Shown here: positions 5,223 through 57,935 of the stretch, one piece after another | How the letters are laid out: the number at the start of each line of letters is the position of its first letter | Position numbering within the stretch: the first letter of the stretch is position 1 | Assembly: GCA_004195715.1 (NCBI GenBank) | Contig: PSPX01000001.1 | Span: 1-63,403, forward strand | From: Methanobacteriota archaeon | GTDB lineage: Archaea > Thermoplasmatota > Poseidoniia > Poseidoniales > Thalassarchaeaceae | Length of the DNA: 63,403 nt | Direction of reading: 5' to 3' | Translations under genes and position numbers: made by a program | Notes under the pieces: model-generated | Seen by the model: only the letters and a program-made list of their open reading frames with translations | Databases searched by the model: none | Told to the model about the DNA's origin: nothing

Positions 5223-5241
5223 CGCACCTCTAGGAGGTGCG
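5223..5241 (+). promoter_or_regulatory. 8-bp perfect inverted repeat covering the ribosome binding site
   Basis: CGCACCTC (5223-5230), loop TAG, GAGGTGCG (5234-5241). The right arm contains the GGAGGTG Shine-Dalgarno sequence of the gene starting at 5245, so folding of the RNA would hide it. A TATA-like CCCTATAG at 5215-5222 lies about 26 bases before the ATG, so the repeat could alternatively be a DNA operator between TATA box and start site. Member of the repeat family described in the findings. Confidence 0.65.
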
Positions 5242-5244
5242 AGC

Positions 5245-8200
5245 ATGGGCAACACTGGTGTCCGGCTAGTTTGTAGGGCGCCGAGGGCGAACAATTCGCA
5301 TACTCTGCTGATGGCCCTGCTGTTCTTGCTCCCCATCCTTTCTCCCTTCTCTGCGGTGAGCGGCGAGGCGAGAATAGAATCCCAGGACTTCGAGGTACTT
5401 GGTCAACTGTCCAAAGTACTCGAGGAGCGCCAAGAGATGCTAGATAGCAACTCCGTTGCGCAGCTGGCCCAACCGACCATCGAAGGAATCGCCAATTCGG
5501 TAATGCCGACCGGACCCTCCGACCCTCTCGCCAATGTGAACGGGACCATAGATGGAGCGAGTATGGTGACGACCGCACCCCCGCAACCCCAGCATCCTGG
5601 ACCCTACAATCTGTTGTTGAACCCCAACAGCAGTCCTCCTGGGCAGGTTGACAATATCTGGCAGACTCTGTTGAATCTGACCGATTACGTAATCTGGACA
5701 GAGTACATCGACCTCGAGGGTAACACGATTCAGAGCTACGAGGTGGTGACATTCTCTGCTAACCTGCTTTCTCTGTTCGACATCAACTCCGATCCACTTC
5801 TGCATGAAGTCGACATCGATAACGACGGGGACGATGATATCGAGGTCGGACTGAAGATCTCTTGGGAGTTCCTAAGTGGCTGGGGATTCGAAGAAGGGGT
5901 GCTGTGGATCGAGCCCGGCATTTCGTATTCGGTCAAGGTACTAGACTCCAGCCGGAACGACCCAGATTGGAATCAAATGGACTCGCTGCAGGTATCTCTA
6001 ATCAAGGCCTTCGCATATTCCGGTCAAGACTCCATACTTGCCCTCGGAGAAGGCGAATCCTACATCTGGGTAGTTGACTCGAGATTCAACACCCAACCCG
6101 AGGACTTCATTCTCCGAATCGGAATCGAGAGATTCTACTTCGATATCTCGGAAGCCAGCAGCGACCTGCTGTTCACCCTCATTCAGGCACTCACTCTTGG
6201 CATCATTGGCTCGGGAGTCGACGAATCCGGTATCACCTTCGCCTCGATATCAGCGCCCTACGCCATCGAGATCAGAACCCCCGGCCAGTCCGATTGCCCT
6301 GATCGATACTCGCCTGATGAGTTGCTGTATGCCTCGCATATAGAGTTGAACTGCGGGGTAACTGCCGGCTTTGGATACCTACACTTCTCTCCTCCGGACG
6401 ACAACGGCGACAGGGACCTCTGGGAGTTGGCCTACGTTGAACTTTCATTCCACCCCAACAAAGACGCAGTCATCATCCCAGAGGAGGTTGACATCGTCAT
6501 CAGAACGGACAGCGTGTTGCCGGAGAACGGTTTAGTCGACGGCGAGAATGGACTGACTACCATCGAGTACTGGGCCGATCAGAGGACTGATCTGCACATC
6601 CACTTCCACGAGAACCGCTCCGGGCTCCCGCCCTCGGAATCCGACGATGGCAGCAGGGGCAATGTGACCGACTCTGTCGGTTGGCTCCGCGGAATGCCCG
6701 CGGGCTCATTGTCTCCCGGTGAGATTGAGCGCGTGTTCAGGATGCTCGGCTCAGACGGCTCGCAGTCGCAGCTGCCCGGAGAGCTCCCTTCGAGGCTGGG
6801 GCTAATCTTAGGAATCAAGAACTTCAGCCGAGACAACAGTGAGAACGTCGATGATCCGACACTGCCTGTCAATCCGGCAAATCCCCCTAAAACGCTGATA
6901 TTACTTCGTTCGGTACAGTCTGTGGAGGAAATCGACTACGACTCGTGGTTCCTGCGCGAGGGTGCACCAGGGGATCACCGCAAGATTCACATCTCCGCAA
7001 GAGACGTCCCTACGGCCATTGTCCTATACGGCTCATTCGAGTTAGGAGGAGGGGCGACAGTCGATAACAGCCTAGATTCTGAGGACAGTCTAGATTTCGT
7101 CTCAAAGATAGTCGACAACGTACTAATCAACATCGTCGACCTGTTCTTAGATATCGGTAACGTGCTGAACGATATCCCGTCTGCGGTTGTCGACGTCATC
7201 AGCGGTGGCCTTGATGGGACTAGCGGCTTGCAAGGGCGTACATTCCACCTGCTGCTGACAGATAACTGGCTGGTGACCCGGGCCGACATGCCAATTCAAT
7301 CAGTTTCGGTTCAGATAGGCTCCAGTTCGCATCCGGTCATGCTAGGCGACCACCTCCTTCTGGCAAAAGACAGAGGACTGGAAACCGTGAACGGAAGGAA
7401 CGGCCCCATCGATCCCTTGGTTCCAATAGCGGCCAGCATCCGCTTCAGTGGACTGGTGGCTTTCTCATTGATTGACAACGATGAGCTAGACGAGCAACTC
7501 ATGAGTCTGCGAACCTCCTCAAACGAAGCATTCGGCTTCATTTACATCGAGCATCCCTCAGAAATGCTCGAAGGCGCCTCCTTCCAGGCCTTGGCACTCA
7601 GTGACATCCCTGACATTATCTCCATACAAGTCTCACCGAGCGGAATGGAGTACCTTGCTTCGACCGGAATCGAATCGATTGTTTACACGGGTATGGACGG
7701 CACGCAGCGCCAGGCGGCTACCATAACCGGCGTGCCCGACTCATTCAGCACCACATCAGGTATCGTCACCGGGTGGTCCTCTTCCACTCCCATCTCGTCC
7801 ATCGAGGCGCAGATCAGCAATTCGACTGAACCGGTCAGGATGACTGGCGACCACTTCCTCTTCCATCATGATCAGATAACCGGGACCTCCAGCATCTCAG
7901 CCAGACTGACCGGGCTCAGCGAAGTCAGTTGGACGGAACCGATCGAGATGGGGGCATCGGGTCCGACCGGTAGGGGAACCGCTCAGATATCGGTGTCCGG
8001 TGATCGAGCATTGAGCATCAACGTCGACCACGCACCGACTGTGGGAGGCGACTCGCTCTCCGTAATGGCCTCGATTGATCCACTCCCATCCACCGTCGGA
8101 ATACAGATACCGACCGGATCCGACTCAGGATCCAGCCTTGACGTGCCTGAATTCAACACCTCAAATGGGCTTTCCGGAGTTGCTTTCTTCATCAGCGGAT

Positions 8201-9630
8201 TCGCCGACCTCGGCAGGTCGGTAAACAGTGTCCTGTCAGGCATCACCTCGGACATCTCCACCAGCTCGGAGTCCGATGAGGACTTCTCCTTCGGCCTCCA
8301 ATTAGAGGCCGACTCGACATTCGACCTAACCGTGGAGGCTGTGCACGGTGACGGCTCAATTAAGGCACCCACATGGGTTCACGGAGTCGCCTTCAAGGCG
8401 TCTCCCACGGGAATCGCCGACGGCTTCCACCTGAGAATTTGGTTGCCTGAACTTCCTCCATTGATCGACTTCTCGATTACTAGGCAGAACAAGCTCAATG
8501 GCCAGGATTGGGGCATCAGCATGGGTCTCGAAGGTTGGGTGCCGGCGCACAGCGAACTCATGGTCCAGATCTATGGGATTAATGGCCAAGATCTGCTATT
8601 GACCCTTCAGGGTCTGACCGTCGGAGCACCTACGAATCTCGGACTCGATGCGGTGTTCGAAATCAGATCGATCGGTGAGATAACAGAAGTCACAACCTCG
8701 ACCCACTACGTCCTCTCCGAGAGGTTGGACTGGGTCCACGTCCTGCTCATCAACAGAGAGGCGGGAAGCAGGACCGAGGTGATGATTCAGGACATCCCAG
8801 AGACCGTTGATTTGCAAGCTAGCATAGGCACGGCGATATCTATTGACATGACCGTCCCCGAACAGTACAGGCGCGACGGTTCTTCTGTCGGTGCCATCAT
8901 GATGCAGCAGATGCAGTGGCTGGATTCAGCATGGTGGCCGGCAACGGTGTTCCTGACCGATGTTCCCGGCTGGATCAACCTGACTACAGCCCCTTCGCTT
9001 GAGTTCGACATAACTCAAACTCTGGCTTTCCAAGGAACCCCGACGCTTGACTTCAGGGCCTCCGAGGAGGGCATGTCATTGTACATAGAGGTCTTTGGTA
9101 GGGCGATAAACAGGAGAGGAGACACAATCCTACTAGCCGAAGGAATGACCGATTTCATGTCGATTAGTACCACCAAGACGTTTGGTCTCTCCATCAGATC
9201 AGGTGGCGATGGGGTCGAACGCCTCTACATCAGGATGAGCAACGTCCCTGTCACACCTCCATTGGTCCTCGAGGAGATGGAGGCGCTAGGTGAGAACCTA
9301 CAGCGGGCCACGGTCAACATCAGGGAGTTAGTGGGCCCATACAGCATCATCGAGGTGGATGATGTTCAAGGTGAGAGAATCATTGTCTCGGCCCGTGCCT
9401 CAGCCGTTATCGAGGGCAATGAGTTCGACCTCAGGGGCGTCCTCCTCGACGCTCAGGTTACCGATGGCATTCCGACCGGTACGACCCTAGGGGTCAATGG
9501 ACTGGCCTCCGATCTCTCACTGCTCAACATGGTTCCAGGTATGAGCGGCTCGACCAAACACGTGATGGTCATCGAGCCATTCTCCTCTGCGATTCTTACG
9601 ATACTCGCGACATTAATGGGAGGTGATTGA
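5245..9630 (+). CDS. very large secreted protein, 1461 residues, unknown family
   Basis: An ATG with a strong GGAGGTG site 7 bases upstream begins a 40-residue signal peptide (hydrophobic core LLMALLFLLPILSPFSAVSG). No catalytic motif is visible. The sequence is beta-rich and Ser/Gly/Asp-rich, with a calcium-binding-like IDNDGDDDIEVG near residue 191. Two related segments, containing PVMLGDHLLLAKD near 696 and PVRMTGDHFLFHHD near 864, show internal duplication. The C-terminus ends in a short hydrophobic stretch (FSSAILTILATLMGG) that may anchor it. The next gene starts 1 base after the stop, so the two are probably co-transcribed and may act together. Function unknown; surface or extracellular structural protein is likely. 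Confidence 0.8.
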   Translation: MGNTGVRLVCRAPRANNSHTLLMALLFLLPILSPFSAVSGEARIESQDFEVLGQLSKVLEERQEMLDSNSVAQLAQPTIEGIANSVMPTGPSDPLANVNGTIDGASMVTTAPPQPQHPGPYNLLLNPNSSPPGQVDNIWQTLLNLTDYVIWTEYIDLEGNTIQSYEVVTFSANLLSLFDINSDPLLHEVDIDNDGDDDIEVGLKISWEFLSGWGFEEGVLWIEPGISYSVKVLDSSRNDPDWNQMDSLQVSLIKAFAYSGQDSILALGEGESYIWVVDSRFNTQPEDFILRIGIERFYFDISEASSDLLFTLIQALTLGIIGSGVDESGITFASISAPYAIEIRTPGQSDCPDRYSPDELLYASHIELNCGVTAGFGYLHFSPPDDNGDRDLWELAYVELSFHPNKDAVIIPEEVDIVIRTDSVLPENGLVDGENGLTTIEYWADQRTDLHIHFHENRSGLPPSESDDGSRGNVTDSVGWLRGMPAGSLSPGEIERVFRMLGSDGSQSQLPGELPSRLGLILGIKNFSRDNSENVDDPTLPVNPANPPKTLILLRSVQSVEEIDYDSWFLREGAPGDHRKIHISARDVPTAIVLYGSFELGGGATVDNSLDSEDSLDFVSKIVDNVLINIVDLFLDIGNVLNDIPSAVVDVISGGLDGTSGLQGRTFHLLLTDNWLVTRADMPIQSVSVQIGSSSHPVMLGDHLLLAKDRGLETVNGRNGPIDPLVPIAASIRFSGLVAFSLIDNDELDEQLMSLRTSSNEAFGFIYIEHPSEMLEGASFQALALSDIPDIISIQVSPSGMEYLASTGIESIVYTGMDGTQRQAATITGVPDSFSTTSGIVTGWSSSTPISSIEAQISNSTEPVRMTGDHFLFHHDQITGTSSISARLTGLSEVSWTEPIEMGASGPTGRGTAQISVSGDRALSINVDHAPTVGGDSLSVMASIDPLPSTVGIQIPTGSDSGSSLDVPEFNTSNGLSGVAFFISGFADLGRSVNSVLSGITSDISTSSESDEDFSFGLQLEADSTFDLTVEAVHGDGSIKAPTWVHGVAFKASPTGIADGFHLRIWLPELPPLIDFSITRQNKLNGQDWGISMGLEGWVPAHSELMVQIYGINGQDLLLTLQGLTVGAPTNLGLDAVFEIRSIGEITEVTTSTHYVLSERLDWVHVLLINREAGSRTEVMIQDIPETVDLQASIGTAISIDMTVPEQYRRDGSSVGAIMMQQMQWLDSAWWPATVFLTDVPGWINLTTAPSLEFDITQTLAFQGTPTLDFRASEEGMSLYIEVFGRAINRRGDTILLAEGMTDFMSISTTKTFGLSIRSGGDGVERLYIRMSNVPVTPPLVLEEMEALGENLQRATVNIRELVGPYSIIEVDDVQGERIIVSARASAVIEGNEFDLRGVLLDAQVTDGIPTGTTLGVNGLASDLSLLNMVPGMSGSTKHVMVIEPFSSAILTILATLMGGD

Positions 9631-9631
9631 G

Positions 9632-10186: not shown

Positions 10187-10205
10187 TGTCCAATCATGAC
10201 TTTTC

Positions 10206-10224
10206 ATGGGTTCGTAGAACCCAT
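10206..10224 (+). promoter_or_regulatory. 8-bp perfect inverted repeat before the subtilase gene
   Basis: ATGGGTTC (10206-10213), loop GTA, GAACCCAT (10217-10224), 33 bases before the ATG at 10258 and 19 after the preceding stop. A GAGGAGG Shine-Dalgarno-like run lies between it and the start. Same 8-3-8 geometry as the repeats at 5223, 14758, 33023 and 53438. Confidence 0.6.
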
Positions 10225-10257
10225 ACGCTCAAATTGAGGAGGACGAGGCGATAGCCG

Positions 10258-13200
10258 ATGACAAAGCGCTCAGTGACACTGATGATGACAATTCTTCTGT
10301 TGTCCTACGCCCCTATTCTCGATCAGTCATCGACTGAGGGCAATACCTCCATGGAATCCTTGGATCGCATGGTCGAGAAAGTGGAAATTTCTCCTGACCC
10401 AAACAGCATTCAAGACCTCGGTGCCCCACTTATCTACTCCGGCTTCGAGGATTTCCGAGCGATAAGAGCTGACTCCAGCATCGGCGTCTACACTCAAGTC
10501 GGATTGCTTCCGGCAGTTCAGATGAGCGTCGAGCTGGCTAATCCACGAAACGACCTCGCAGTAGTCCTCATCGACGGCGAGGTTGGCCTCTGGGAGGCGA
10601 GGCAGGCACTGCTTGAAGCAGCTGATATCGAAATCAGATCTACCATTCCTCCCTCTGGATTCCTAGTACAGGCTGCGCCCGAAAGTCTCTCCACACTTTC
10701 TCAGGTCAAAGAAGTTGAAGCGGTACACGAAGTCCCAGCCGGCCTTCTGGTTCATCCCGATTTGAGAATGGACAACGGGGACCAAACACTCCTCGTCGAA
10801 GTACTTGGTTGGAAGAACTCTGACCTAGTCCGGCAAGACCGGCCAGGCATGGGTTTTGAGGATTCCCTGAGCATCGCCGCATCACTCTGGTTGCAGGAGG
10901 CGTGGTCACCAGAGCAGGGCAGAATGTGGGGCATGATATCCCCTAGTGAAGTGGCCGATTTAGCCAGACATCCCTCTGTCGCTTATGTCGCCCCCATGCC
11001 CCTTATGGTTCTGCATAACGACCAAGCTAGGGTCCACATGGGCATTAACTCAGTTGAGACTACCTTCATCACCGGATTGAATGGCAGCGGGCAGAAGATT
11101 GCTGTGGGCGATTCCGGCCTCGACGATGATCATGGTGACTTCACAGGACGAATCGCTGGCCTGACTTCGGTCACTCCCGGAGATTCATCGACAGCAGATC
11201 TCTCAGACGGGCACGGCACCCATGTTGCCTGCACGGTGTTGGGTGACGGATTCCGCAGCAGCGGCACCTACCAAGGAGTAGCACCCGAGGCCCAAGTCTA
11301 CTTCCAGGCGATGGAGGACGACGATACTGGGCAGTTGTACAGTTACGGCATCAACAGCATGTTGAATTCCGCTTACAATAACGGCGTCCGATTGCACACA
11401 AACAGCTGGGGTGCCGGTAGCGGAGGTGGCAGCTATTCGACCCAATCAGAGGATGCGGATTCCCGCACCTCGACATGGGATCAATACTGGTCTTATCAGG
11501 GTATGACCGTGCTGTTCGCAGCCGGCAACGAGAGGAACGAAGGAGTCTCACCACCTGGGACTGCAAAGAACGTAATCACCGTTGGCGGACACAAGAACCG
11601 ATACAGCGGTGCTCCTGACGAAATGTACTACTGGAGCAGCCGTGGTCCGACTGATGATGGGAGAATCAAACCAGACCTAGTCGCTCCGGGGGACTACGTC
11701 AGGTCGTGCAAATCACAGGAGGCGGACAGCGCCCAGGGCTCATGGAGCAACAACTGGTACCTTGAGTATAGCGGCACCTCGATGTCTACCCCGGCTGCGG
11801 CCGGAGCGGCTGTCCTAGTCAGAGAGTACCTGATGGAGGTGATTGGCAGGCAGGCGCCACAGGGCGCCCTAATCAAGGGACTTCTGATACTCGGCGCTCA
11901 GGATATGGGTACTCGCGATATACCCAACAACGATGAGGGGTGGGGCCGACTGAATCTCGTAGAGTCGCTGATTCCAGACAACGATGTCGGTATCTTTGTC
12001 GACGATCGCTCGCGACTCTCCAGTGGACAGACGAGCGAGTACTCCTTCGATATCACTCGCGCGGGCGAGCCGATGAAGGTGGTACTGACTTGGTCCGACT
12101 ACCCTGGCTCATCTTCTTCTTCGACCCAACTTAGGAACGACCTCGACCTTGAGGTCATATCCCCCAACGGACAGATTACGTACAAGGGAAACGCCTTCGT
12201 AAACGGACGATCAGTCACTGGCGGGACCAAGGACTCCACCAACAACGTCGAGGTCGTGCTAATCGACAACGCAGCTACAGGGACGTGGACGGTGCGCGTG
12301 CGCGACGCCCAGCATGGTGGCAGCCGGACTTGGCAGCCATATGCTCTCGCTGTTCGCGGCGTCAATGTCAATGATTTGAGCCCGGATCCCACCTTCGTCC
12401 AGAACTCCTTTGAAATTTCATCTCCTATCCCCCAAGTCGGAGAGGAGGTCGACATCTCTGTCGTCATCCAGAACCAAGGTGCCGGTTCGGTTGCCGATCT
12501 ATCGGTCATCGCCCGAGCCGACAGCAATCTACTTGGCACCCGTCAGTTGAGTATGTCTCCCGGAGAATCGGCAGTACTCGAGTGGAACTGGACACCGACT
12601 CAAGAGGGGGATGTGGAGTTTACCTTCCACATAGACCCGAGTGATACAGTAGAGGAAGTATCAGAGACCAACAACTACCTCACTCATACTGTCATTGTCA
12701 GCGCACCCGGAGTCAGGGTGTCCTCAGAACAGGAGACCGTCACCCTCGGTGATGCGACAGACAGTTCGACCACTTGGCAACTCTCGCTGATGAATACCGC
12801 TCTGTTCGAGACCAACGCTACAATAGAGGTCAGTGACCCCGTGCGGATGCAGGATGGAGTACAGTATGATTGGTTCACTTCGTTCACCTCGAACACCTTC
12901 AATCTGGAGGCAGCCGAAATCGAATCAGTCAGTCTGACCATGGTACATCCCGCACCTCCACCTCCCGGACTCTACAGTATGGTGGTTACTGGCACAGACG
13001 TTGAGAACAGTGTAACCTCAGAGTTGGCGATATTCTTTGACGTGCCCGTGCTGGCCGGAGCCGAAATTGTGATGCCAGGGGAGCAGTTCCTAGTGAGTCC
13101 GCTTGAGTCCACAGAACTGCAGATTCTGGTCTTCAACGAGGGCAACGGTGCTCAGGCCTATGATGTGGAACTGGTATCACCGGCCGGTTGGCATCTCGGA

Positions 13201-14751
13201 TTCGACACGCTTGGCGCCTTCGCTGGATCATCACATGGTTCAACCGGAACCATGGCTAGGGACGCCGGACGAACGGTCGACATCACCATCAATCCTCCAG
13301 GAGCTATGATTCCTGCGGGATCCGTGTTCGATGCTGCGATAATCATCCACTCACGAGTCAGTTCCGACTCCTGGACCGAGGACATTTCACTTGTGGTCAA
13401 GGCGATAGACGAGGTCAGTACGACACCTTCCTCCGACGGCGCCGAGCACGACATCTCCCCTGACGCGCTACTAGAAATTGAGGTGGATCTCAACAATCTG
13501 GGCAATCGGATGCTGGACCTGCAGCCGTATGTGCGCAATATTCCCGGAGGATGGTCTGTATCGGGAGGGCTGGGCACCATCAGTATCCCCGCGGGAGAAT
13601 CTGCTGTCTGGTCCGTGGCACTGCAGGGCAACGGAGTAGCGGTTAGCGGGAATCTTGAACTCAGATTCGCTACCGATGATGGCTTTTACGTAGACTGGAA
13701 CAGGACTCTAAACGTCCTCTCAGGCGCAATCCCCTCTCTGAATTTCCACATGGTTGCTCTGCCCGACGGAACCGTCTCAGACTATCCACTTGGAGTTGGG
13801 TTCCACCCAGTCGGAGAGCCCGGCTTTGACCTCGCTTGGACAGTTACCAACCAAGGCTCTACCACATGGCGCCCTACTACTTACCTCGAGGTGCCGGACG
13901 ACGACTGGTCATCGAGTTGCTCCGCCCCCTCTACACTTTCAGCGGGCGCCTCGTCCACAGTTTGGTGCACGGTAGTGATACCTCTGTCAGCCGAGGCCTC
14001 CTCCGAGCCCATTGTCACACTAGTGATGCAAGGCGAAGGCGTCGAAGTGAGCGATTCGATATCACTACTGGTTGAGTCTGTTTCTAGGGTGAGTTGGATC
14101 CTGAACAACCAACCTACAGGGCACGAGGGCTACCCGACTACACTGTACCTCGATTTACAGAATACCGGCAACTCGGAGATATCTCACATTCTCCAAGTAT
14201 CTGGTCCCGAGGGGTGGAACCCGCTGATTCTTGATGGAGTGGTGGTTAACTTGAGGCCCGGAGAGACCCGGAGCCTTGATGTTGGATTCACTCCTAATTC
14301 TGGGGGCGATGGAACTCTTGTGGTCGAATTGGCCGATGCCGATGACGTCGAAGCCTCCTCATTCAGCATGGAGATCGACGTACTTCCGGCTGCTAAGGTG
14401 CAAGGAACATCGATTCTAGAGACGCTAATGATTGCAGTTTTGGTACTCGCTCTGGTCGGCGGTGGCCTCTATGTTTATTCTCGCAGGGGAGGCGATTCTT
14501 CAAGTCTGATTCAAACTGAAGCACTGAGCAAGATAGCCGACAGTTTCGGGTTGGGTGAGAAGGAGGAAGAGGAGAGCAGCGGAATCCCCTGCTGGATTTG
14601 CAGTCAGGACATCACATTAGGAGAGGCTTGGGCCTGTTCCGAGTGCGGTGCGAGATACCACAAGTCAGACCAGGTGCAGGGCTGCGATGTCTTCTCCATG
14701 GGCAATTGTATGCACTGCGACGCCCCTTCCGACGATCTCGTCGAAGCGTGA
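10258..14751 (+). CDS. membrane-anchored subtilisin-like serine protease (S8) with C-terminal zinc finger
   Basis: 1497 residues. Signal peptide at 1-25; a propeptide-like region to about 260; then the subtilase domain with catalytic Asp285 (VGDSGLD), His319 (DGHGTHVA), oxyanion Asn424 (AAGNE) and Ser508 (GTSMSTPAAAG). A P/proprotein-convertase-like beta domain and several CARDB-type modules follow (from about 720). A membrane helix lies near 1388-1408 (IAVLVLALVGGGLYVYSRR). The cytosolic tail of about 85 residues ends in a cysteine/histidine-rich finger (CWIC, CSEC, HK, C, CMHC). It would digest external protein at the cell surface. The cytosolic finger is unusual for a subtilase and hints at signalling or anchoring inside the cell. 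Confidence 0.93.
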   Translation: MTKRSVTLMMTILLLSYAPILDQSSTEGNTSMESLDRMVEKVEISPDPNSIQDLGAPLIYSGFEDFRAIRADSSIGVYTQVGLLPAVQMSVELANPRNDLAVVLIDGEVGLWEARQALLEAADIEIRSTIPPSGFLVQAAPESLSTLSQVKEVEAVHEVPAGLLVHPDLRMDNGDQTLLVEVLGWKNSDLVRQDRPGMGFEDSLSIAASLWLQEAWSPEQGRMWGMISPSEVADLARHPSVAYVAPMPLMVLHNDQARVHMGINSVETTFITGLNGSGQKIAVGDSGLDDDHGDFTGRIAGLTSVTPGDSSTADLSDGHGTHVACTVLGDGFRSSGTYQGVAPEAQVYFQAMEDDDTGQLYSYGINSMLNSAYNNGVRLHTNSWGAGSGGGSYSTQSEDADSRTSTWDQYWSYQGMTVLFAAGNERNEGVSPPGTAKNVITVGGHKNRYSGAPDEMYYWSSRGPTDDGRIKPDLVAPGDYVRSCKSQEADSAQGSWSNNWYLEYSGTSMSTPAAAGAAVLVREYLMEVIGRQAPQGALIKGLLILGAQDMGTRDIPNNDEGWGRLNLVESLIPDNDVGIFVDDRSRLSSGQTSEYSFDITRAGEPMKVVLTWSDYPGSSSSSTQLRNDLDLEVISPNGQITYKGNAFVNGRSVTGGTKDSTNNVEVVLIDNAATGTWTVRVRDAQHGGSRTWQPYALAVRGVNVNDLSPDPTFVQNSFEISSPIPQVGEEVDISVVIQNQGAGSVADLSVIARADSNLLGTRQLSMSPGESAVLEWNWTPTQEGDVEFTFHIDPSDTVEEVSETNNYLTHTVIVSAPGVRVSSEQETVTLGDATDSSTTWQLSLMNTALFETNATIEVSDPVRMQDGVQYDWFTSFTSNTFNLEAAEIESVSLTMVHPAPPPPGLYSMVVTGTDVENSVTSELAIFFDVPVLAGAEIVMPGEQFLVSPLESTELQILVFNEGNGAQAYDVELVSPAGWHLGFDTLGAFAGSSHGSTGTMARDAGRTVDITINPPGAMIPAGSVFDAAIIIHSRVSSDSWTEDISLVVKAIDEVSTTPSSDGAEHDISPDALLEIEVDLNNLGNRMLDLQPYVRNIPGGWSVSGGLGTISIPAGESAVWSVALQGNGVAVSGNLELRFATDDGFYVDWNRTLNVLSGAIPSLNFHMVALPDGTVSDYPLGVGFHPVGEPGFDLAWTVTNQGSTTWRPTTYLEVPDDDWSSSCSAPSTLSAGASSTVWCTVVIPLSAEASSEPIVTLVMQGEGVEVSDSISLLVESVSRVSWILNNQPTGHEGYPTTLYLDLQNTGNSEISHILQVSGPEGWNPLILDGVVVNLRPGETRSLDVGFTPNSGGDGTLVVELADADDVEASSFSMEIDVLPAAKVQGTSILETLMIAVLVLALVGGGLYVYSRRGGDSSSLIQTEALSKIADSFGLGEKEEEESSGIPCWICSQDITLGEAWACSECGARYHKSDQVQGCDVFSMGNCMHCDAPSDDLVEA

Positions 14752-14757: not shown

Positions 14758-14776
14758 CGCGACCCAAGGGGTCGCG
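14758..14776 (+). promoter_or_regulatory. 8-bp perfect inverted repeat after the subtilase stop
   Basis: CGCGACCC (14758-14765), loop AAG, GGGTCGCG (14769-14776). It starts 6 bases after the subtilase stop and 41 before the next start. A TATA-like CTTAGA (14789-14794) lies after the repeat, about 27 bases before the next start, so here it would sit upstream of the promoter; it could therefore be a terminator. There is no T-run. Confidence 0.6.
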
Positions 14777-14817
14777 TCGCCCGAAGTCCTTAGAGGGACG
14801 GTTATGTCGGGGTGCCA

Positions 14818-17511
14818 ATGAAGCGCAGTTCATCTGCCATCATTCTAACCGCGATGTTGTTGCTCACAATCGTAACACCGTTAGCCGCAGCAGCGGTATC
14901 AGTATCTCTTTCTGCAAACCCCACGGCTCAGGAGGCTACTCCAGATGACGACGCGGAGTACGATATCATCGTGACCAATGATGGGGATGAGGATGTCTCA
15001 GTGGCTCTCAGTACCCAACAGGGCAATGACTGCAACGGTTTCTCCTCCTCTCTGGATACTTACCAGGTATCTGTGAATGAAGGTGAATCGGAGACAGTCA
15101 AGCTAACCGTCACCGTGAACGACCAGGCAGATGGCGACTGTGAGACAACGGTGAACGCCCAAGCCACTGGTGGAATAGGATCTCCTGCCAACGATGATGT
15201 CACGGTGACGACCACCGCAGGTGACGGTGGCGGACTCTACTCGGTGAAGCTGACTACAGATGAGCAGTTGAAGTCCTACGACGGCGACTCGACCGAGTCC
15301 GATAGCGTGGTTTGGGACGTCGAGGTCGAGAACAACGGCGAGCAGCAGGCCAACGTCCAGTTGGAGATGACTTCGGACAGTGACTGCGAGTCTGACTCTC
15401 TCGATGCCACCGTAGATCCTCAGGTTCTGCAACTGGACCCAGAGGACAAAGAGACCGTCGAAGTGACTGTGGACGTACCTGACGGCAGTTCAACCGAAGC
15501 GGGTGATCACTGCTTCATCCTCAAGGCCACTGTGACTAACGACCCCAATGCGGCCGACCAAGCCGAGGACAACATCACCTTGACTCTCAAGATACCGGAG
15601 CGCAAGGAGTGTGACCCTGACCTGCAGTTCACCTCACACAACCTCGATCCGGGGGATTCAGCCACCAACTCGTTCGAGGTCGATAACATCGGGAACACGG
15701 AATGGACCGTGACTGCCAACGCACAAGCTCAGAATTCCGACTACGATATCACAGGATGGGTGGACTTCGACAGCCCCCTGAGCAAACTTCTCTCTGAGCC
15801 AGGCGGTTCGCAGGACAGCCACACTTTCACCTTCAGCGTGACTCCTGATGACTCCATCGAATCTGGGACGCAAGTGGGAATCAAGATTCAGGGACGTGCT
15901 GGTACCTCGGTCGGTTGTGAGCAGATTCTAACTGTCACCGTCGGCCAGAGTCACGATGCTTCCATGACCCTGAGCAAGAACAAACTCAGCAACGTCGAAC
16001 CGGGTAGCTCTGACACGGTTACGGTCCAGATCACCAATCAAGGCAATGGTATGGAGACCATGTCCATCGGGGCCTCAGGACTGCCACCGGGGTGGCAGAT
16101 TTCATTCTCTCAGACCTCAGTGACTGTTGGCAGTTCACACTCCGGCAACAACAAAGAGACAGTGACTGCAGAGATATTCGTCCCCGAGGACGCTAGCGCG
16201 GCTGAGGACACGGTCATCACCTTCACAGTCGGACGTGGTGGAGGGAGCACCCCTTACGACACCAAGGACCTCACAGTGTCAGTGGCTGCGCGTCACAGCG
16301 TCACCACTTCGATACTCTCGACCCAGCAGACCGGCCGAACGGATCAGACAATCCAGTTCCCTATCGATGTGACCAACTCAGGGAACATCCAGGACACTTT
16401 CAAGTTACAGGCCTGCGACCCGGGAGATAATACAGGATGCAACTCTCCGATGTGGGAGTCGTCATTCTCCGACTCGCAGGGAAACACAATCTCACAAATT
16501 ATCCTTGACCCCAGTCAGAAGCAGACCGTCTATCTTGACATCTTAGTTGAGGGCGAGGAGGACGCTGATTCGGTTACCGTGCTTGCACGGATAGCTATCT
16601 ATGGGACCTCCGAGGCGGACGAGTATACTGTCAGTGTGGTGGTCTCGAACTTCAACTACGCAATGGCCATCTCTCCCCAGAATCCCGGTGAGGTACCTGA
16701 CCAGATTGAAGCAACCCTCCCTCCGGGTGGTTCCATGACTGCCGCATTCTGGATCGAGAACACAGGGGACTATCCCGGTGGAGACAAAGCTGTGATCACC
16801 GTCATCGGCATGGAGTCATCCGTACTCAGGACGATGACGATTGAAGGCGTCGAGATTGATGGGACCGTGACGCTGGGAATAGGAGAGAGAGTACTCGTCG
16901 AGGTCCAGATTGACGTTCTCGAAGGAGTCGCAAACGGCGTCTCTGGCGTGGTCAAGGTGAGTGCTTCTTCGGAGAGGAACACAGCTCAGAGCACTTCGGT
17001 CGATATTGTGGTTGAGGTGAGGACCATCCACGATCTCAGATTCACCCTTGAAGGCGAGGACGAGCAGAACGCCGAATACCCGAATAAGGCCTATTTCATC
17101 CTCTACATCACTAATCATGGCAACATCGTTGAAGATGTCCAAGTTCTGTCCAGCGAGTCCTTGAGGGGTTGGACTGTCAATGTCGATTTCGACGAGTTTG
17201 AACTTGAACCTGGGCTGACAAAAGAGGTTCAAGTGAGTGTCACGCCACCTAGCGATCTGCTCGATGACGATACCTACATGTTCACTGTCACGGTGCAACC
17301 CGAGGGAATTGCAGTAGCTGGTGAACCCATCGATTTGACAGTGACCTCACAGATGCCATCGACCTTCATCGGCCTATCTGAGGAAATGGCTCAAGCGCTT
17401 GTCTACGGGTCTATCATTCTGGGCGCAATTTTGGTCATCGTACTGTTCTTCCGCTCGCGTTCGGAGAACCGCCGAATAGTCGAAGCACTTGAAAATCAGT
17501 TTGAGGACTAG
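14818..17511 (+). CDS. CARDB/NEW3-type surface protein with C-terminal anchor
   Basis: 897 residues from ATG 14818 (GTG at 14812 also possible). Signal peptide at 1-28 (ILTAMLLLTIVTPLAAAA). The ectodomain is a chain of about seven Ig-like modules of the CARDB/NPCBM-associated type, each marked by an N-x-G-N/D turn (VTNDGDED, VENNGEQQ, VDNIGNTE, ITNQGNGM, VTNSGNIQ, ITNHGNIV) and paired cysteines in several modules. A membrane helix near 860-880 (VYGSIILGAILVIVLFF) precedes a short basic cytosolic tail. No catalytic motif. Probably a cell-surface binding or structural protein, last of the block and followed directly by the complex I operon. Confidence 0.82.
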   Translation: MKRSSSAIILTAMLLLTIVTPLAAAAVSVSLSANPTAQEATPDDDAEYDIIVTNDGDEDVSVALSTQQGNDCNGFSSSLDTYQVSVNEGESETVKLTVTVNDQADGDCETTVNAQATGGIGSPANDDVTVTTTAGDGGGLYSVKLTTDEQLKSYDGDSTESDSVVWDVEVENNGEQQANVQLEMTSDSDCESDSLDATVDPQVLQLDPEDKETVEVTVDVPDGSSTEAGDHCFILKATVTNDPNAADQAEDNITLTLKIPERKECDPDLQFTSHNLDPGDSATNSFEVDNIGNTEWTVTANAQAQNSDYDITGWVDFDSPLSKLLSEPGGSQDSHTFTFSVTPDDSIESGTQVGIKIQGRAGTSVGCEQILTVTVGQSHDASMTLSKNKLSNVEPGSSDTVTVQITNQGNGMETMSIGASGLPPGWQISFSQTSVTVGSSHSGNNKETVTAEIFVPEDASAAEDTVITFTVGRGGGSTPYDTKDLTVSVAARHSVTTSILSTQQTGRTDQTIQFPIDVTNSGNIQDTFKLQACDPGDNTGCNSPMWESSFSDSQGNTISQIILDPSQKQTVYLDILVEGEEDADSVTVLARIAIYGTSEADEYTVSVVVSNFNYAMAISPQNPGEVPDQIEATLPPGGSMTAAFWIENTGDYPGGDKAVITVIGMESSVLRTMTIEGVEIDGTVTLGIGERVLVEVQIDVLEGVANGVSGVVKVSASSERNTAQSTSVDIVVEVRTIHDLRFTLEGEDEQNAEYPNKAYFILYITNHGNIVEDVQVLSSESLRGWTVNVDFDEFELEPGLTKEVQVSVTPPSDLLDDDTYMFTVTVQPEGIAVAGEPIDLTVTSQMPSTFIGLSEEMAQALVYGSIILGAILVIVLFFRSRSENRRIVEALENQFED

Positions 17512-17566
17512 TCGCGACTCCAAAGTCGAGTCCGGATAGGCTTATTGCCGAAATTCAGGTGCAATG

Positions 17567-17596
17567 ACCCGTCGGTCCCTAAGGGGACCGTCGGGT
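17567..17596 (+). promoter_or_regulatory. long stem-loop in the complex I operon leader
   Basis: CGGTCCC (17573-17579) pairs with GGGACCG (17584-17590) around a TAAG loop; outside one T-T mismatch, ACCCG (17567-17571) pairs with CGGGT (17592-17596), giving a 12-bp stem. A TATA-like CTTATT at 17541-17546 places the expected transcript start near 17567, so the hairpin would form the very 5' end of the operon mRNA. The nuoA ATG is 6 bases further on. Confidence 0.6.
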
Positions 17597-33022: not shown

Positions 33023-33041
33023 TCGACATCTATGATGTCGA
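33023..33041 (+). promoter_or_regulatory. 8-bp perfect inverted repeat before the carboxylase gene
   Basis: TCGACATC (33023-33030), loop TAT, GATGTCGA (33034-33041). It begins 2 bases after the DUF63 stop and ends 47 before the next ATG. A second stem CTCGCC (33063-33068) / GGCGAG (33079-33084) lies closer to the start. Member of the 8-3-8 repeat family. Confidence 0.6.
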
Positions 33042-33088
33042 GTCCATTCAATTGAAGGCTCGCTCGCCGTCTGAGGGGGGCGAGAGGC

Positions 33089-34648
33089 ATGGATAGGCTG
33101 ACCACCCGCATCGACCGAGGAGGCGAGGATTTCGAGTCCCGCACAGAGGCTAATCTGGCTCTGGTGGAAGTTCTGAGGACCAGAGTGGACGCTGTCAAAG
33201 AGGGAGGAGGAGGAAAGTACGTCGATCGTCACCGAGAACGCGGCAAGAGCCTGCCGAGGGAGCGGATATCGGAAATCTGCGACGCCGCGACTCCGTTCCT
33301 CGAGCTTTCGACACTAGCCGCCAATGGACTGTATGACGGCAGAGCTCACTCTGCCGGAATCATCACTGGCATCGGTGTGGTGCACGGCAAGGAGTGCATT
33401 TTCGTGGCCAACGACGCCACCGTAAAAGGCGGTTCGTACTACCCGATGACGGTCAAGAAGCATGTCAGGGCCCAGGAGATAGCCGAGGAGAACAACCTAC
33501 CCTGCATCTACCTCGTGGACTCGGGAGGAGCTTTTCTTCCCATGCAGGACGAGGTATTCCCGGACAAACTACACTTCGGACGGATCTTCCGCAATCAGGC
33601 AATCCTATCGAGTAAGGGGATTCCGCAGGTCGCCGCCGTGTTGGGTTCGTGTACCGCAGGAGGTGCCTACATCCCGGCGATGTCCGACGAGTCAATCATC
33701 GTCAAAGGCAATGGCACCATCTTCCTCGCCGGCCCTCCTCTAGTCAAGTCAGCTACAGGAGAGGAGGTCTCGGCGGAAGACCTCGGTGGGGCCGATCTAC
33801 ACACCAGAGAGTCAGGAGTGGCCGATCACTTCGCTGAAGACGAAACTGAGGCGCTCAAGATGGTGCGCAGTGTGGTTGAGAACCTAAACGTCGACCCCAA
33901 ACATAGGCTCGACACCTCGCAACCAGAAGAGCCTGCACATGACCCGCAGGACTTGATGGGAATCATACCCACTGACAATCGTACTCCCTATGATGTCAGA
34001 GAGGTCATAGCCAGAGTTGTGGATGGCTCGCGCTTCCACGAGTTCAAGCAGCGCTATGGCAACACACTGGTCTGTGGCTTCGCTAGAATTCACGGCTACC
34101 CGGTCGGCATCGTCGCCAACAACGGCATTCTGTTCTCCGAGTCGGCACTGAAAGGTGCCCACTTTGTCGAACTGTGCGGCCAGCGTGGTATTCCGTTGGT
34201 ATTCCTGCAGAACATCTCAGGCTTCATGGTTGGGCGTGATGCCGAGGCCGGCGGCATCGCCAAAGACGGTGCCAAACTCGTCACGGCAGTCTCCTGCGTG
34301 CCTGTCCCGAAGTTCACAGTCATCATCGGCGGTTCGCACGGAGCCGGCAACTACGGCATGTGCGGGCGCGCCTACGATCCACGTTTCCTATTCATGTGGC
34401 CTAACGCGAGAATATCCGTGATGGGTGGTGAGCAGGCTGCCAGCGTGCTCTCCTCAGTGGGCAACGCTGACCCCGACGAGATCCGCGAGAAGTACGAGAG
34501 CGAGAGCAATCCGTACTACTCTACAGCCCGACTCTGGGACGACGGGGTAATCGATCCGCGAGACACTCGCGATGTGATTGGACTTTGCATATCTGCCAGC
34601 CTAAATGCCTCTATGCCGGACCAAGACTACGGCGTTTTCAGGATGTGA
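33089..34648 (+). CDS. mccB: methylcrotonoyl-CoA carboxylase, carboxyltransferase (beta) subunit
   Basis: Transfers the carboxyl group from biotin to 3-methylcrotonoyl-CoA in leucine breakdown. 519 residues with two crotonase-fold halves. The stretch [20 protein letters not shown], followed by [20 protein letters not shown] and [20 protein letters not shown], is typical of the methylcrotonoyl rather than propionyl enzyme. The neighbouring hydratase, biotin carboxylase and biotin carrier genes support the assignment. SD-like GGGGGG lies 8 bases upstream. Propionyl- or geranyl-CoA specificity cannot be excluded from sequence alone. Confidence 0.92.
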
Positions 34649-37629: not shown

Positions 37630-38217
37630 ATGGAGGCGACCGCCGTAATCATGGCCACCCTGATGGGGATAAGCCTAGCAGCAGCATCGGGGTTCAGGGT
37701 GTTTCTGCCACCATTCTTGCTGTCCGTGGCGGCACGCCTCGACATCGTCTGGTTCCTCGATCTCGATCTTATGGGAACTCAGTTCGAGTTCTTCACTTCC
37801 ACACTGGCCATTGTAGTCCTAGGGATAGCCACCGTGGCTGAGTTCGCGGGCTTCTACGCACCGTGGATAGACAACGCTCTCGACACTATAGCAACACCTG
37901 CTTCCATCCTTGCCGGAGTAGCGATGACGGCAATAGTTCTCGAGGGCTCTGACCCCATCTTCCAGTGGGCGGTCGCCATTGTGGCCGGTGGTGGTGTGGC
38001 TGCCACCATCCAGTCAGCCACAGTCGCGACTCGCAGCCTGAGTTCGACCTTCACCTTCGGACTGGGCAACTCTGCTGTTGCCACAGGTGAGAACGTTGCC
38101 AGCGTGGCCCTCACACTAATCGCCATTCTAATACCGTTCATCTCAGCCTTCGTCGTGATACTGGTAGTGGCACTACTTGTCAGGATGAAGCGCCGCAGTG
38201 AAGCGGCGGTTCAGTGA
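37630..38217 (+). CDS. DUF4126 family membrane protein
   Basis: 195 residues, about five membrane helices. The N-terminus matches DUF4126, a widespread inner-membrane family of unknown function: ISLAAASGFRVFLPPFLLS (about 15-33), followed by FAGFYAPWIDNALDTIATPAS. It has glycine-rich AGGGVAATIQSATVATRSLS in the third helix region. A lone gene with its own TATA-like box; its end overlaps that of serS by seven bases, tail to tail. Confidence 0.78.
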   Translation: MEATAVIMATLMGISLAAASGFRVFLPPFLLSVAARLDIVWFLDLDLMGTQFEFFTSTLAIVVLGIATVAEFAGFYAPWIDNALDTIATPASILAGVAMTAIVLEGSDPIFQWAVAIVAGGGVAATIQSATVATRSLSSTFTFGLGNSAVATGENVASVALTLIAILIPFISAFVVILVVALLVRMKRRSEAAVQ

Positions 38218-38223
38218 AGCGGC
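38196..38223. repeat. 12-bp direct repeat at convergent gene ends
   Basis: CAGTGAAGCGGC occurs at 38196-38207 and again at 38212-38223, with a 16-base period. Both stop codons (DUF4126 on +, serS on -) lie in the second copy. Confidence 0.7.
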
Positions 38224-39491
38224 TCTAGGGTCTCTTGGCCGTCCATGTAGGGCCTGAGGGCCTCGGGTACGCCGACGCGTCCATCTTTCATCTGATTCTG
38301 TTCCAATATCGCGACTAGTGCTCTGCTGGTTGCTATCGCCGTGGAGTTCAGCGTGTGCACCGTCTCGTTGCCCTCAGTGGTTCTGTACCTCATGCGCAGA
38401 CGGTTGGCCTGATAGTCGGTGCAGTTCGAGCACGAGACGACCTCCTTGTAGTCCCCCACTCCGGGCAGCCACGCCTCGAGGTCGTACTTCCTCGCCGCCA
38501 CTGTACCCATGTCACCTGTGCAGATGTTCACAACTCTGTAGTGCAGTCCGAGACTGTCCCACAAGTCCACCGCATTGCCCAACAGCTCCTCGTGGTGACC
38601 CCAAGAGTCGTCTGGATGACAGATTACGATCTGCTCTACTTTGGTGAACTGGTGAACTCTCCAGATGCCACGGTCGGACAACCCGTGCGCACCAACCTCG
38701 CGACGGAAGCAGACCGAGACTCCTACCAATCTTATCGGCAACTCGCTGGGCTCGATTATCTCGTCCATCCGCATTGCGGTGAGGGGGTGCTCGCTGGTAG
38801 CGATGAGGTAGTAATTGTCGGGTTCTATGCCGTACATCACGGTCTCGAAATCCGCTAGGTCGGTGACACCCTCGTAGGCGTCCCGGTTCATCATCAGAGG
38901 AGGTTGTACAAGCGTGTAGCCCCTACCCCTGAGGAAATCAGCACCGTACTGCTGTAACGCCATCTCTAACCTAGCTAGATCGCCCTGCATGAAGTAGAAG
39001 CGGCTGCCAGCGACTTTGGCCCCGCGCGCTTGGTCGACCCAGCCATTCATCTCAATCAGGTCATTGTGGTTACGCGGCTCAAAACCCAGTTCGACCTTCT
39101 CGCCGTGCATGCTGTGCAGGGTGTTCTTCTGGTCGTCCTCGCCTATTGGCACCTCAGCGTGCAGGATGTTGGGAATTCTCATCCTCAAGGCGTCGCGCTG
39201 CTCTAGGCACTCGTCCGAGTGCTCCGCCAACTTGTCAATTTGGGCGCCGATGTCGGCTACTTCGGCCAATATCGCATCAGCGGCCGACGAATCACCCGAT
39301 TTCTTTGCCTCAGCGATACTCCTCGCAGCTTCATTGCGAGCCTTCCGAAGCTGGTCTGCATTGTACCTGGTACTACGCCATTCCTCATCGAGGCGGATGA
39401 CCTCGTCAATGCTCTCGTGCGTTAGCCCACGTCTGTCATGGTCAGCCCTGATGACGTCAGAATGCTCTCTGAACATGCTGATGTCTAGCAT
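38211..39491 (-). CDS. serS: seryl-tRNA synthetase
   Basis: Class II synthetase of the common (bacterial/eukaryal) type, not the methanogen type. 426 residues: an N-terminal coiled-coil arm (about 28-100) that grips the long variable arm of tRNA-Ser, motif 2 around CFRREVGAHGLSDRGIWRVHQF split as CFRREVGAHG and RGIWRVHQFTKVEQ, and motif 3 with NSTAIATSRALVAILEQNQ. Length is normal. Its promoter region carries a 9-bp perfect inverted repeat ending four bases before the start. Convergent with the DUF4126 gene. Confidence 0.96.
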   Translation of the reverse strand: MLDISMFREHSDVIRADHDRRGLTHESIDEVIRLDEEWRSTRYNADQLRKARNEAARSIAEAKKSGDSSAADAILAEVADIGAQIDKLAEHSDECLEQRDALRMRIPNILHAEVPIGEDDQKNTLHSMHGEKVELGFEPRNHNDLIEMNGWVDQARGAKVAGSRFYFMQGDLARLEMALQQYGADFLRGRGYTLVQPPLMMNRDAYEGVTDLADFETVMYGIEPDNYYLIATSEHPLTAMRMDEIIEPSELPIRLVGVSVCFRREVGAHGLSDRGIWRVHQFTKVEQIVICHPDDSWGHHEELLGNAVDLWDSLGLHYRVVNICTGDMGTVAARKYDLEAWLPGVGDYKEVVSCSNCTDYQANRLRMRYRTTEGNETVHTLNSTAIATSRALVAILEQNQMKDGRVGVPEALRPYMDGQETLEPLH

Positions 39492-39494: not shown

Positions 39495-39515
39495 GACCAG
39501 CCCTCAGGGCTGGTC
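39495..39515 (-). promoter_or_regulatory. 9-bp perfect inverted repeat before serS
   Basis: GACCAGCCC (39495-39503), loop TCA, GGGCTGGTC (39507-39515), ending 3 bases before the serS start codon on the minus strand. It is the longest perfect member of the inverted repeat family. A tRNA-like leader (T-box) is not evident; no anti-terminator motif is seen. Confidence 0.6.
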
Positions 39516-39545
39516 AGCGACCCTTCAACCAATCGGCCGTTGAAC

Positions 39546-45275: not shown

Positions 45276-45276
45276 G

Positions 45277-49131: not shown

Positions 49132-49133
49132 AC

Positions 49134-49149: not shown

Positions 49150-49233
49150 CATCGGATATCTATTCATCGGGAAACTCTCCAGCCCCCGAGGAACTAGGCA
49201 ACCTTGATTCGCGATGGCCCACTAGGTACACTC

Positions 49234-49467
49234 ATGTCAGCCGGATACGTACTAATCAACGTCGAACCAGGCTCTGAGTCCAGCGTGTACGCTGCAGCGG
49301 CCAGCGTCGATTGTGTCACAGACTCCAACCTGCTCTTCGGCGACTACGACCTAATTGTCAAGGTTGAGGGCGACAACATGGGAGACATTGCCCGAAATGT
49401 CGTCGAATCCATCAGATCTATTCCCGGAGTCGTTAATACCAAGACTCTGGCTTGTGCAGAAATGTGA
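49234..49467 (+). CDS. stand-alone RAM (Lrp/AsnC ligand-binding) domain protein
   Basis: 77 residues. VLINVEPGSESSVYAAAASVDCV, LLFGDYDLIVKVEGDNMGDI and VVESIRSIPGVVNTKTL fit the alpha/beta ligand-binding domain of Lrp/AsnC regulators, here with no DNA-binding domain, so it likely binds amino acids and multimerises with another regulator. ATG 49234 is chosen over the upstream TTG because the family N-terminus begins there. It lies 115 bases before the MC1 gene. Confidence 0.85.
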   Translation: MSAGYVLINVEPGSESSVYAAAASVDCVTDSNLLFGDYDLIVKVEGDNMGDIARNVVESIRSIPGVVNTKTLACAEM

Positions 49468-49846: not shown

Positions 49847-49855
49847 GCGCTTTGT
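49832..49855 (+). terminator. stem-loop over the MC1 stop codon
   Basis: ACAAAGCGC (49832-49840) pairs with GCGCTTTGT (49847-49855) around GTTTAG, which contains the stop codon. A T-run follows about 22 bases later. It probably ends the MC1 transcript or protects its 3' end. Confidence 0.5.
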
Positions 49856-49925
49856 GATCTCTCTTGATCGCCGGTATGATTTTTCCCCCTAGAGAGCGGA
49901 GCCTCTCATCCTGAGGCCATAGGGT

Positions 49926-53385: not shown

Positions 53386-53437
53386 GGTCCATCCCTGATG
53401 TCCGCATCGCGGAGTCCTAGCCCCATAAGGGATTGCA

Positions 53438-53456
53438 TGAGTCCCTTTGGGACTCA
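53438..53456 (-). promoter_or_regulatory. 8-bp perfect inverted repeat before the sdh operon
   Basis: TGAGTCCC (53438-53445), loop TTT, GGGACTCA (53449-53456). It is 53 bases before sdhC and 45 before the plus-strand zinc-ribbon gene, on which it could also act. A minus-strand TATA-like sequence (ccccataagg on +, 53421-53430) lies between the repeat and sdhC. Confidence 0.6.
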
Positions 53457-53500
53457 ACCGACAGTGCAAGGTTCAAGGCGCACATCCCCAATCGTCAGAC

Positions 53501-53608
53501 ATGATCGGAGGGGACATCGAGACATCGATCTGTCTGAACTGCGGGCACATGCCCGGTGCGTGGTTGCCCGGGCTGCCTTGCCCTGAGTGTGGCGAACCTC
53601 TGCTCTAA
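53501..53608 (+). CDS. 35-residue zinc-ribbon microprotein
   Basis: An ATG-to-TAA frame whose product has two knuckles, C-L-N-C-G-H and C-P-E-C-G, spaced 16 residues apart: a complete tiny zinc ribbon. The stop overlaps the end of the aldehyde dehydrogenase gene on the other strand. Such ribbons are common in Poseidoniales-type genomes as isolated proteins; the function is unknown. It may bind RNA, DNA or protein partners. The cysteine pattern makes it more credible than an arbitrary frame of this length. Confidence 0.6.
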   Translation: MIGGDIETSICLNCGHMPGAWLPGLPCPECGEPLL

Positions 53609-55233: not shown

Positions 55234-55330
55234 GGTCTACGCGAATCGCCCTTACGCCATGAATCCTACTCATCCACCCCCTTCGTTCCGATAACCGATA
55301 TCGTCCTAGGGACACCTCATTGTTGGTAGG

Positions 55331-55338
55331 TTTAACTA
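55331..55338 (+). promoter_or_regulatory. TATA-like box of the CDC48 gene
   Basis: TTTAACTA, about 40 bases before the GTG at 55378. A start site near 55360 would leave a leader of about 18 bases with AGGAG (55364-55368), 9 bases before the GTG. Confidence 0.5.
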
Positions 55339-55377
55339 GCCTCACAACCGAAGAGTGTCTGCTAGGAGCGTGTTGTT

Positions 55378-57603: not shown

Positions 57604-57612
57604 GGTGGAAGA

Positions 57613-57855
57613 ATGCCGACGACCTTCGGCCGAGAGATTCTGGGGCGGGAGGTCATCGACGAATCCGGTGATCGTTTGGGCCATATGGCCGACTTTCGAC
57701 TCGACACCGATACGGGAAGCATCGTGTCCATATTGGTCTCCATCGAACCGGATCTTGACCCCACCATGCTGCCTTGGCCGACTGTCGACGGACTCATCTC
57801 CGTCCCTGTCGAAGACGTCGCCGGTATTGGCGCGAGCGTGCAGTTGGCACGCTGA
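57613..57855 (+). CDS. PRC-barrel domain protein
   Basis: 80 residues, FGREILGREVIDESGDRLGHM, then DTDTGSIVSILVSIEP and the IPV-like VPVEDVAGIGASVQL strand: a stand-alone PRC barrel, related in style to the one at 2393. It starts 9 bases after CDC48 with GAGGTGGAAG upstream, so it is co-transcribed with it and may act as its adaptor. Function inferred from fold only. Confidence 0.85.
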   Translation: MPTTFGREILGREVIDESGDRLGHMADFRLDTDTGSIVSILVSIEPDLDPTMLPWPTVDGLISVPVEDVAGIGASVQLAR

Positions 57856-57918
57856 CTACTGATGCACGACCCGTTCACCACCGCATAACGGTCTTAAGAC
57901 GAAGTTTAGGCTCGTTAG

Positions 57919-57935
57919 CCGTTCCTACGGAACGG
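57919..57935 (+). promoter_or_regulatory. 7-bp perfect inverted repeat before the DUF4350-like gene
   Basis: CCGTTCC (57919-57925), loop TAC, GGAACGG (57929-57935). It is followed by GGAGG (57934-57938) 8 bases before the GTG at 57947, so the right arm touches the Shine-Dalgarno sequence. TATA-like TTTAGGC lies at 57905-57911. Confidence 0.6.

Follow-up and report, generated by a model that had tools for sequence, protein, structure and literature searches.

Short inverted repeats, referred to here as 'dyads', stand before the first genes of transcription units in the archaeal genome analysed here; they are of one shape and of differing sequences, occur far above chance, and constitute a family that is real, lineage-specific, strongly conserved and promoter-proximal. 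We read them tentatively, with a confidence somewhat below one half, as promoter-proximal DNA control sites, each gene having a private sequence that would likely be bound by a symmetric protein. That confidence is limited chiefly because the private dyads outnumber the regulators that can be recognized, and for the same reason a reader of hairpin shape is retained as a serious rival.

In the surface ocean, Marine Group II ranks among the most abundant groups of archaea; to our knowledge it has no cultured member, and its gene regulation is little understood. A handle on that regulation is offered by a conserved cis element that can be computed from sequence and that marks an estimated 66 promoters per genome, among them those of genes for surface and secreted proteases, Complex I, a chaperonin, serine-tRNA ligase, thiolase and CO-dehydrogenase-type proteins. 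We did not find such elements described for these archaea in the literature; a 2026 survey of inverted repeats dealt with arms of at least 10 bp and reported that bacteria favour 4-bp spacers (PMC13155455).

The whole stretch of DNA that was analysed (the 'window', 63,403 nucleotides) is one contig (C23) out of 42 in a genome of 1.45 Mb (1.448 Mb; G000), and among named organisms it is closest to Candidatus Thalassarchaeum and other Marine Group IIb MAGs. The window also contains giant secreted proteins, a Complex I cluster and, at 1595-1696 (+), a tRNA gene whose intron measures about 30 nt; Rfam finds this gene at 56.4 bits, while ARAGORN run on the window reports none. The gene is probably a tRNA-Tyr, its anticodon region being GTA by eye. 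Elsewhere in this small genome, two loci (L042 and L081, on contigs C11 and C21) carry several paralogous genes in the same order, as a duplicated gene cluster.

The dyads of the window and their excess in gaps

A sequence-only reading of the window had pointed to eight inverted repeats, all placed between genes. All eight are present, and all eight are intergenic, the one at 53438 provided that the downstream gene starts at 53385 (a start backed by orthologues) and not at the first TTG. The dyads, together with the promoter-like boxes nearest to them (assigned from sequence only), are as follows.

5223-5241: dyad 8+3+8, CGCACCTC-TAG-GAGGTGCG, 3 nt before a 1461-aa gene (5245-9630)
5215-5222 (+): putative TATA-like box CCCTATAG, directly upstream of the 5223 dyad in a conserved block; CCCTTTAG or CCCTAAAT in relatives
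10206-10224: dyad 8+3+8, ATGGGTTC-GTA-GAACCCAT, 33 nt before a secreted subtilase gene (10258-14751, subtilase/CARDB domains)
10225-10235 (+): putative core-promoter element ACGCTCAAATT, between the 10206 dyad and the start; kept where the dyad is missing
14758-14776: dyad 8+3+8, CGCGACCC-AAG-GGGTCGCG, 6 nt past the upstream stop and 41 nt before the gene 14818-17511
14788-14797 (+): putative TATA-like box CCTTAGAGGG, between the 14758 dyad and the start; kept where the dyad is missing
17567-17596: dyad 7+4+7, extended to 12 bp with one mismatch, CCCGTCGGTCCC-TAAG-GGGACCGTCGGG, before nuoA
17539-17547 (+): putative TATA-like box GGCTTATTG, conserved, 25 nt upstream of the inner arm at 17573
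33023-33041: dyad 8+3+8, TCGACATC-TAT-GATGTCGA, 2 nt past the upstream stop and 47 nt before a carboxyltransferase gene (33089-34648)
33047-33057 (+): putative core-promoter element TTCAATTGAAG, between the 33023 dyad and the start; kept in one genome without the dyad
39495-39515: dyad 9+3+9, GACCAGCCC-TCA-GGGCTGGTC, 3 nt upstream of serS (38211-39491, minus strand)
39522-39529 (-): putative TATA-like box GTTGAAGG, conserved, upstream of the serS dyad; TTGAAG is among the commonest 6-mers at -38 to -18
53438-53456: dyad 8+3+8, TGAGTCCC-TTT-GGGACTCA, 52 nt upstream of the start at 53385 (minus strand)
53423-53430 (-): putative TATA-like box CCTTATGG, conserved, between the 53438 dyad and the start
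57919-57935: dyad 7+3+7, CCGTTCC-TAC-GGAACGG, 11 nt before the start at 57947
57890-57898 (+): putative TATA-like box GGTCTTAAG, 20-24 nt upstream of the dyad in four genera

The 1461-aa protein behind the first dyad has no Pfam match and was found in 40 of the 40 relatives searched, including those of Marine Group IIa (33-36% identity). Orthologues of the 10206 site without a dyad (L060-L067) keep the right arm, ACCCATA..CTCAAAAT, within a conserved promoter block, and only the complementary left arm is absent.

The sequence-only reading had put the number of such stems arising by chance at well under 0.1; in the 2,803 b of window gaps, six perfect dyads with arms of at least 8 bp and a spacer of 3 are observed, while 2,000 dinucleotide shuffles gave a mean of 0.043 and a maximum of 2. 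All perfect 8-bp triloop stems in the window are intergenic, and its sole 9-bp triloop stem within a gene lies at 54511. The larger tally, which covers 706 kb of G000 (about half of the genome), bears out the enrichment over shuffled gaps on which the sequence-only reading had staked itself, with 34 dyads against an expectation of about 2 when spacers of 3 and arms of at least 7 bp are counted (tandem gaps contain 24 where 1.2 are expected, and divergent gaps 10 where 0.9 are). With a spacer of 4 the excess falls steeply (4 against 1.2 and 2 against 0.8); it is gone beyond 5, and none was seen for spacers of 6-10 in the same 706 kb. In G000 and its congener (sister species) G012 together, tandem and divergent gaps hold 56 dyads with a spacer of 3 versus nine with a spacer of 4. 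Demanding a C-NNN-G core gives 33 dyads in the 706 kb against 0.85 expected, which scales to about 66 sites for the whole 1.448 Mb. A chance origin is thus ruled out by the shuffled gaps.

Transfer RNA arms were considered as a source and set aside, only a few of the loop-3 gap stems being tRNA stems, which were masked with ARAGORN. Convergent gaps contribute three loop-3 stems to the 706-kb tally; in a smaller sample, at least two of the loop-3 stems in such gaps resemble tRNA arms by their flanks.

Architecture, position and conservation

The arms have a common composition, much as had been remarked for the window (left arms ending in pyrimidines and C, right arms beginning with G and purines). 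In 46 distinct arms, the base adjoining the loop is C in 83% of cases and is preceded by a pyrimidine in 72%, versus 51% and 52% in coding controls, and the spacers are A/T-rich (63-78% versus about 45%). By our own hexamer-based gene caller, whose start distances err by a few to tens of bases, dyads lie either 0-20 nt before a start codon or some 25-60 nt before it, often a few bases past the upstream stop. In this start-distal class, dyad and start are usually separated by a box similar to the weak TATA signal of the lineage (-26 to -30), and A/T content peaks weakly at -25 to -33 from the start. Such boxes (for example ACGCTCAAATT, CCTTAGAGGG and TTCAATTGAAG) are kept even in relatives that have no dyad. 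Roughly half of the dyads would lie upstream of their putative TATA box, and hence outside the downstream transcript.

The genes behind dyads are diverse, and encode a bleomycin-hydrolase-like peptidase, subtilases, UbiD, a thermosome, a thiolase, NrfD-type and Complex I subunits, PanB, RimK, a molybdenum hydroxylase-type 2Fe-2S subunit and an ArsR-type regulator. They are longer than control genes (median 442 versus 310 aa, p=0.005), and seven of 35 encode proteins of at least 900 aa, versus 10 of 274 controls. One further dyad, CCGCTCCC-TTT-GGGAGCGG (L048:3005-3023), lies one base past a stop codon; after it come some 720 bases in which no gene was called, and a missed gene or a non-coding RNA may be hidden there.

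Conservation in close relatives, the absence of which would have told against the family, is strong. When the eight window sites were compared with orthologues of at least 72% identity, about 5% of arm positions differed (31/680, or 4.6%, and 43/680, or 6.3%, for the two arms), versus 38% of loop positions (109/288); the flanks differed at 26% (344/1320) and 17% (228/1320). Both half-sites are therefore conserved around a free spacer, the pattern looked for in an operator that binds a dimer. Fifteen of 18 comparisons between G000 and G012, each anchored on the downstream protein, show the same behaviour, with exact arms kept and loops changing.

Individual sites illustrate how this conservation is distributed. 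The exact arms of the 5223 dyad occur in 52 of the 292 genomes of the order, in one copy each and always with a spacer of 3, the loop being variable except that it always begins with T; those of the 14758 dyad occur in 30 of 148 genomes of the family, again once per genome. Each of these arm sequences is thus private to one gene. The inner arms at 17573 (CGGTCCC/GGGACCG) are invariant in 24 distinct orthologues around a variable loop, and at this site and at 14758 the spacer toggles between 3 and 4. At 53438, most congeners share the arms TGAGTCCC/GGGACTCA; those of G012 are TGGGCCCC/GGGGCCCA, which amounts to two compensated pairs, and G010 has an intermediate, TGAGTCCC/GGGGCTCA, with one T.G on the sense strand. 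Before the gene at 57947, three genera (g1, g3 and g5) have the stems CCGTTCC, CACATCC and TGGACC, respectively, at the same place, 20-24 nt after the conserved GGTCTTAAG. The dyad of the carboxyltransferase gene at 33089 abuts the ATG in g2, g3 and g5 and stands 47 nt upstream in g1.

The dyads are a feature of the Marine Group IIb lineage, strongest in this genus and nearly absent from one Marine Group IIa genome. With a spacer of 3, the congener G012 has 18 in tandem gaps against 0.6 expected and four in divergent gaps against 0.4; G022, of another genus and 37.5% G+C, has five against 0.8 and six against 0.6; and G025, the sole Marine Group IIa genome tested, has two against 0.5 and none against 0.3. 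As a separate observation, three loci of different families or genera, L335 (Marine Group IIa, g15), L331 (g2) and L333 (g5), share TCGACC(C)-N3-(G)GGTCGA right before the same carboxyltransferase gene, Marine Group IIa being otherwise without the dyad family.

Possible readers of sequence or of shape

In the reading that we tentatively prefer, the common build (perfect inverted arms of 7-11 bp, with a C-G pair flanking an A/T-rich 3-bp spacer) would most likely be bound by a symmetric, dimeric protein, the halves of which would each touch one arm and leave the spacer free. A site that follows the TATA-like box and precedes the start (those at 5223 and 39495, for example) would then act as a repressor-type operator, and a site just upstream of the box (for example, those at 10206, 14758, 33023 and 53438) as an activator-type site or an upstream boundary; a review of Lrp describes activator dimers sitting a few bp upstream of the BRE as common in archaea (PMC2995911). 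Recognition at the level of DNA is favoured because the arms are conserved around a free spacer, with neither a G.U preference nor an orientation bias of the loop, as expected of a two-fold symmetric site; because a spacer of 3 dominates and is constant at 5223 in all 52 genomes; because sites occur in divergent gaps; because many sites, judged by sequence, lie upstream of a conserved TATA-like box; and because one site adjoins the gene of an ArsR/HTH_20-type regulator in the layout of autoregulation. That site, CCCAACC-N3-GGTTGGG, lies in a divergent gap in two species (L088:17256-17272 and L103:9365-9381), and 6 nt separate it from the regulator gene; another GTTGGG half-site stands about 30 nt upstream, and is conserved in both. 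A regulator gene with an adjacent site in a divergent gap is the usual layout of autoregulation, and the site is a good candidate for an autoregulated operator.

Several observations sit less easily with operators of the ordinary kind. Natural archaeal operators are usually imperfect, and most of the dyads are perfect. Two sites accept a spacer of either 3 or 4, a tolerance that is unusual for a rigid dimer, and the compensated pairs at 53438 and the differing stems before the gene at 57947 fit a shape better than a fixed sequence.

The largest difficulty concerns the number of readers, since ordinary operators with private sequences would require dozens of regulators. Against some 66 sites, about 13 ORFs with winged-helix domains are found in the whole genome (HTH_20 and HTH_24, E<=0.05), too few to be the cognate regulators if this fold, the only one counted, is considered by itself; some of the 13 are large proteins and perhaps not regulators. 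AsnC-type domains number six in the genome. Three stand-alone AsnC ligand-binding (RAM) proteins of 86-89 aa, without an HTH, were also noted, including those at 49204-49467 of the window and at 30591-31030 of contig C38 of G000. Among the 25 families listed in a Pfam search of 227 small proteins, no DNA-binding family is expanded beyond three HTH_24 members, and an all-against-all phmmer comparison of 635 proteins gave no paralogous regulator family. A single regulon with a shared operator was likewise rejected: the arms do not cluster (seven pairs share at least six of seven bases, versus 4.9 expected from column-shuffled arms, p=0.2), and only TTGACCCC and GCGACCC recur. Additional half-sites around each dyad are not enriched either (22 in the flanks versus 16 expected). 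The discrepancy between many dyads and few regulators implies either unrecognised families of DNA-binding proteins or sites that are read by shape.

The latter alternative, which we regard as possible though rather doubtful, is a hairpin in the 5' leader or between cistrons of the RNA, or one extruded from the DNA, that is read by a single structure-specific factor or affects access of the ribosome. Any arm sequence would then serve, and, on this equally guarded proposal, stems would be frozen since a lone mismatch carries a cost and a compensating change seldom arises. The sequence-only reading had leaned toward an RNA element, a view that is partly supported: some 66 unrelated sequences share one shape without clustering, the arms at 53438 are compensated in G012 and pass through a T.G in G010, the gene at 57947 is preceded by a different stem in each of three genera, at corresponding places, and the loop may be 3 or 4 nt at 14758 and 17573. 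The right arm at 5223 contains a Shine-Dalgarno match, several other start-proximal right arms contain GGAG or GGTG, and all eight window dyads fold stably as RNA (-9.4 to -25.8 kcal/mol). An RNA element is not established for all that, the arms being conserved within each gene (those such as CGCGACCC and CGGTCCC are constant over several genera), with neither a G.U preference nor a U-run. The search for compensatory changes that the sequence-only reading had proposed yielded one clean two-pair case and the T.G, both at 53438, and no preference for G.U on the sense strand (0 G.T, three A.C and seven others in the 10 one-mismatch C-core members of G000). Loop letters have no significant strand orientation (p 0.17-0.29), the orientation being suggestive at 5223 and not significant overall; half of the sites would lie upstream of putative core promoters, and some lie in divergent gaps; and tetraloops, which RNA hairpins usually favour, are few. 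Rfam covariance models at gathering score matched no dyad, finding only a tRNA. Two dyads, those at 17573 and 57919, roughly coincide with a predicted transcription start and may be 5'-leader hairpins. An RNA reading is thus possible for some members and not established for the family as a whole. The boldest reading by shape, a promoter-control system in which a single structure-specific factor serves dozens of promoters by recognising perfect 7-11 bp dyads with 3-base loops, and in which every gene has come up with arms of its own that then became fixed, strikes us as unlikely.

It is improbable that dyads near a stop codon terminate the preceding transcript or insulate the promoter that follows. 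Of 50 tandem sites, 15 do stand no more than 8 nt from the upstream stop (uniform placement would give about 10), with a promoter-like box just downstream; however, the T-run of an intrinsic terminator is absent after the stems (2.14 T in 10 nt versus a background of 2.21, longest run 3), and dyads are also found in divergent gaps and right before start codons. Least probable is a functionless by-product of template switching in quasi-palindromes, a process that yields perfect inverted repeats and would account for the perfection of the arms and the paired changes at 53438, but that should act in coding sequence too (73 loop-3 dyads in 658 kb of G000, or 0.11 per kb), leaves the cross-genus conservation, 3-base spacer and promoter placement unexplained, and is already largely refuted by the coding versus gap counts and by arm conservation.

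Comparison with known systems

The dyads resemble the dimeric operators of archaeal regulators (Lrp/AsnC, ArsR, TrmB) in their inverted half-sites and short A/T-rich spacer, and in a position either upstream of the BRE/TATA, as for Lrp activators (PMC2995911), or between TATA and start. They differ in that they far outnumber the winged-helix regulators found; moreover, Lrp sites are reported to be degenerate and clustered in register (PMC2995911), whereas the dyads are single, mostly perfect and private to one gene. Bacterial intrinsic terminators likewise have a short G+C-rich stem, a small loop and a position in gaps, but the dyads have an exact 3-base loop and conserved arms, lack the U-run, and occur before starts and in divergent gaps. 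Leader hairpins that sequester a Shine-Dalgarno sequence are matched at 5223, where CACCTC pairs with GAGGTG 6 nt before the ATG; most other dyads bury no Shine-Dalgarno sequence or lie too far upstream. REP-type palindromes are also short and extragenic, but are multicopy, and a REP or MITE repeat was rejected because the two arms checked occur once per genome and arms do not cluster. Phage N4 hairpin promoters, finally, have a short stem and a 3-base loop and are read as a DNA hairpin near the transcription start; they may serve as an analogy only, the dyads being a chromosomal family at varied positions.
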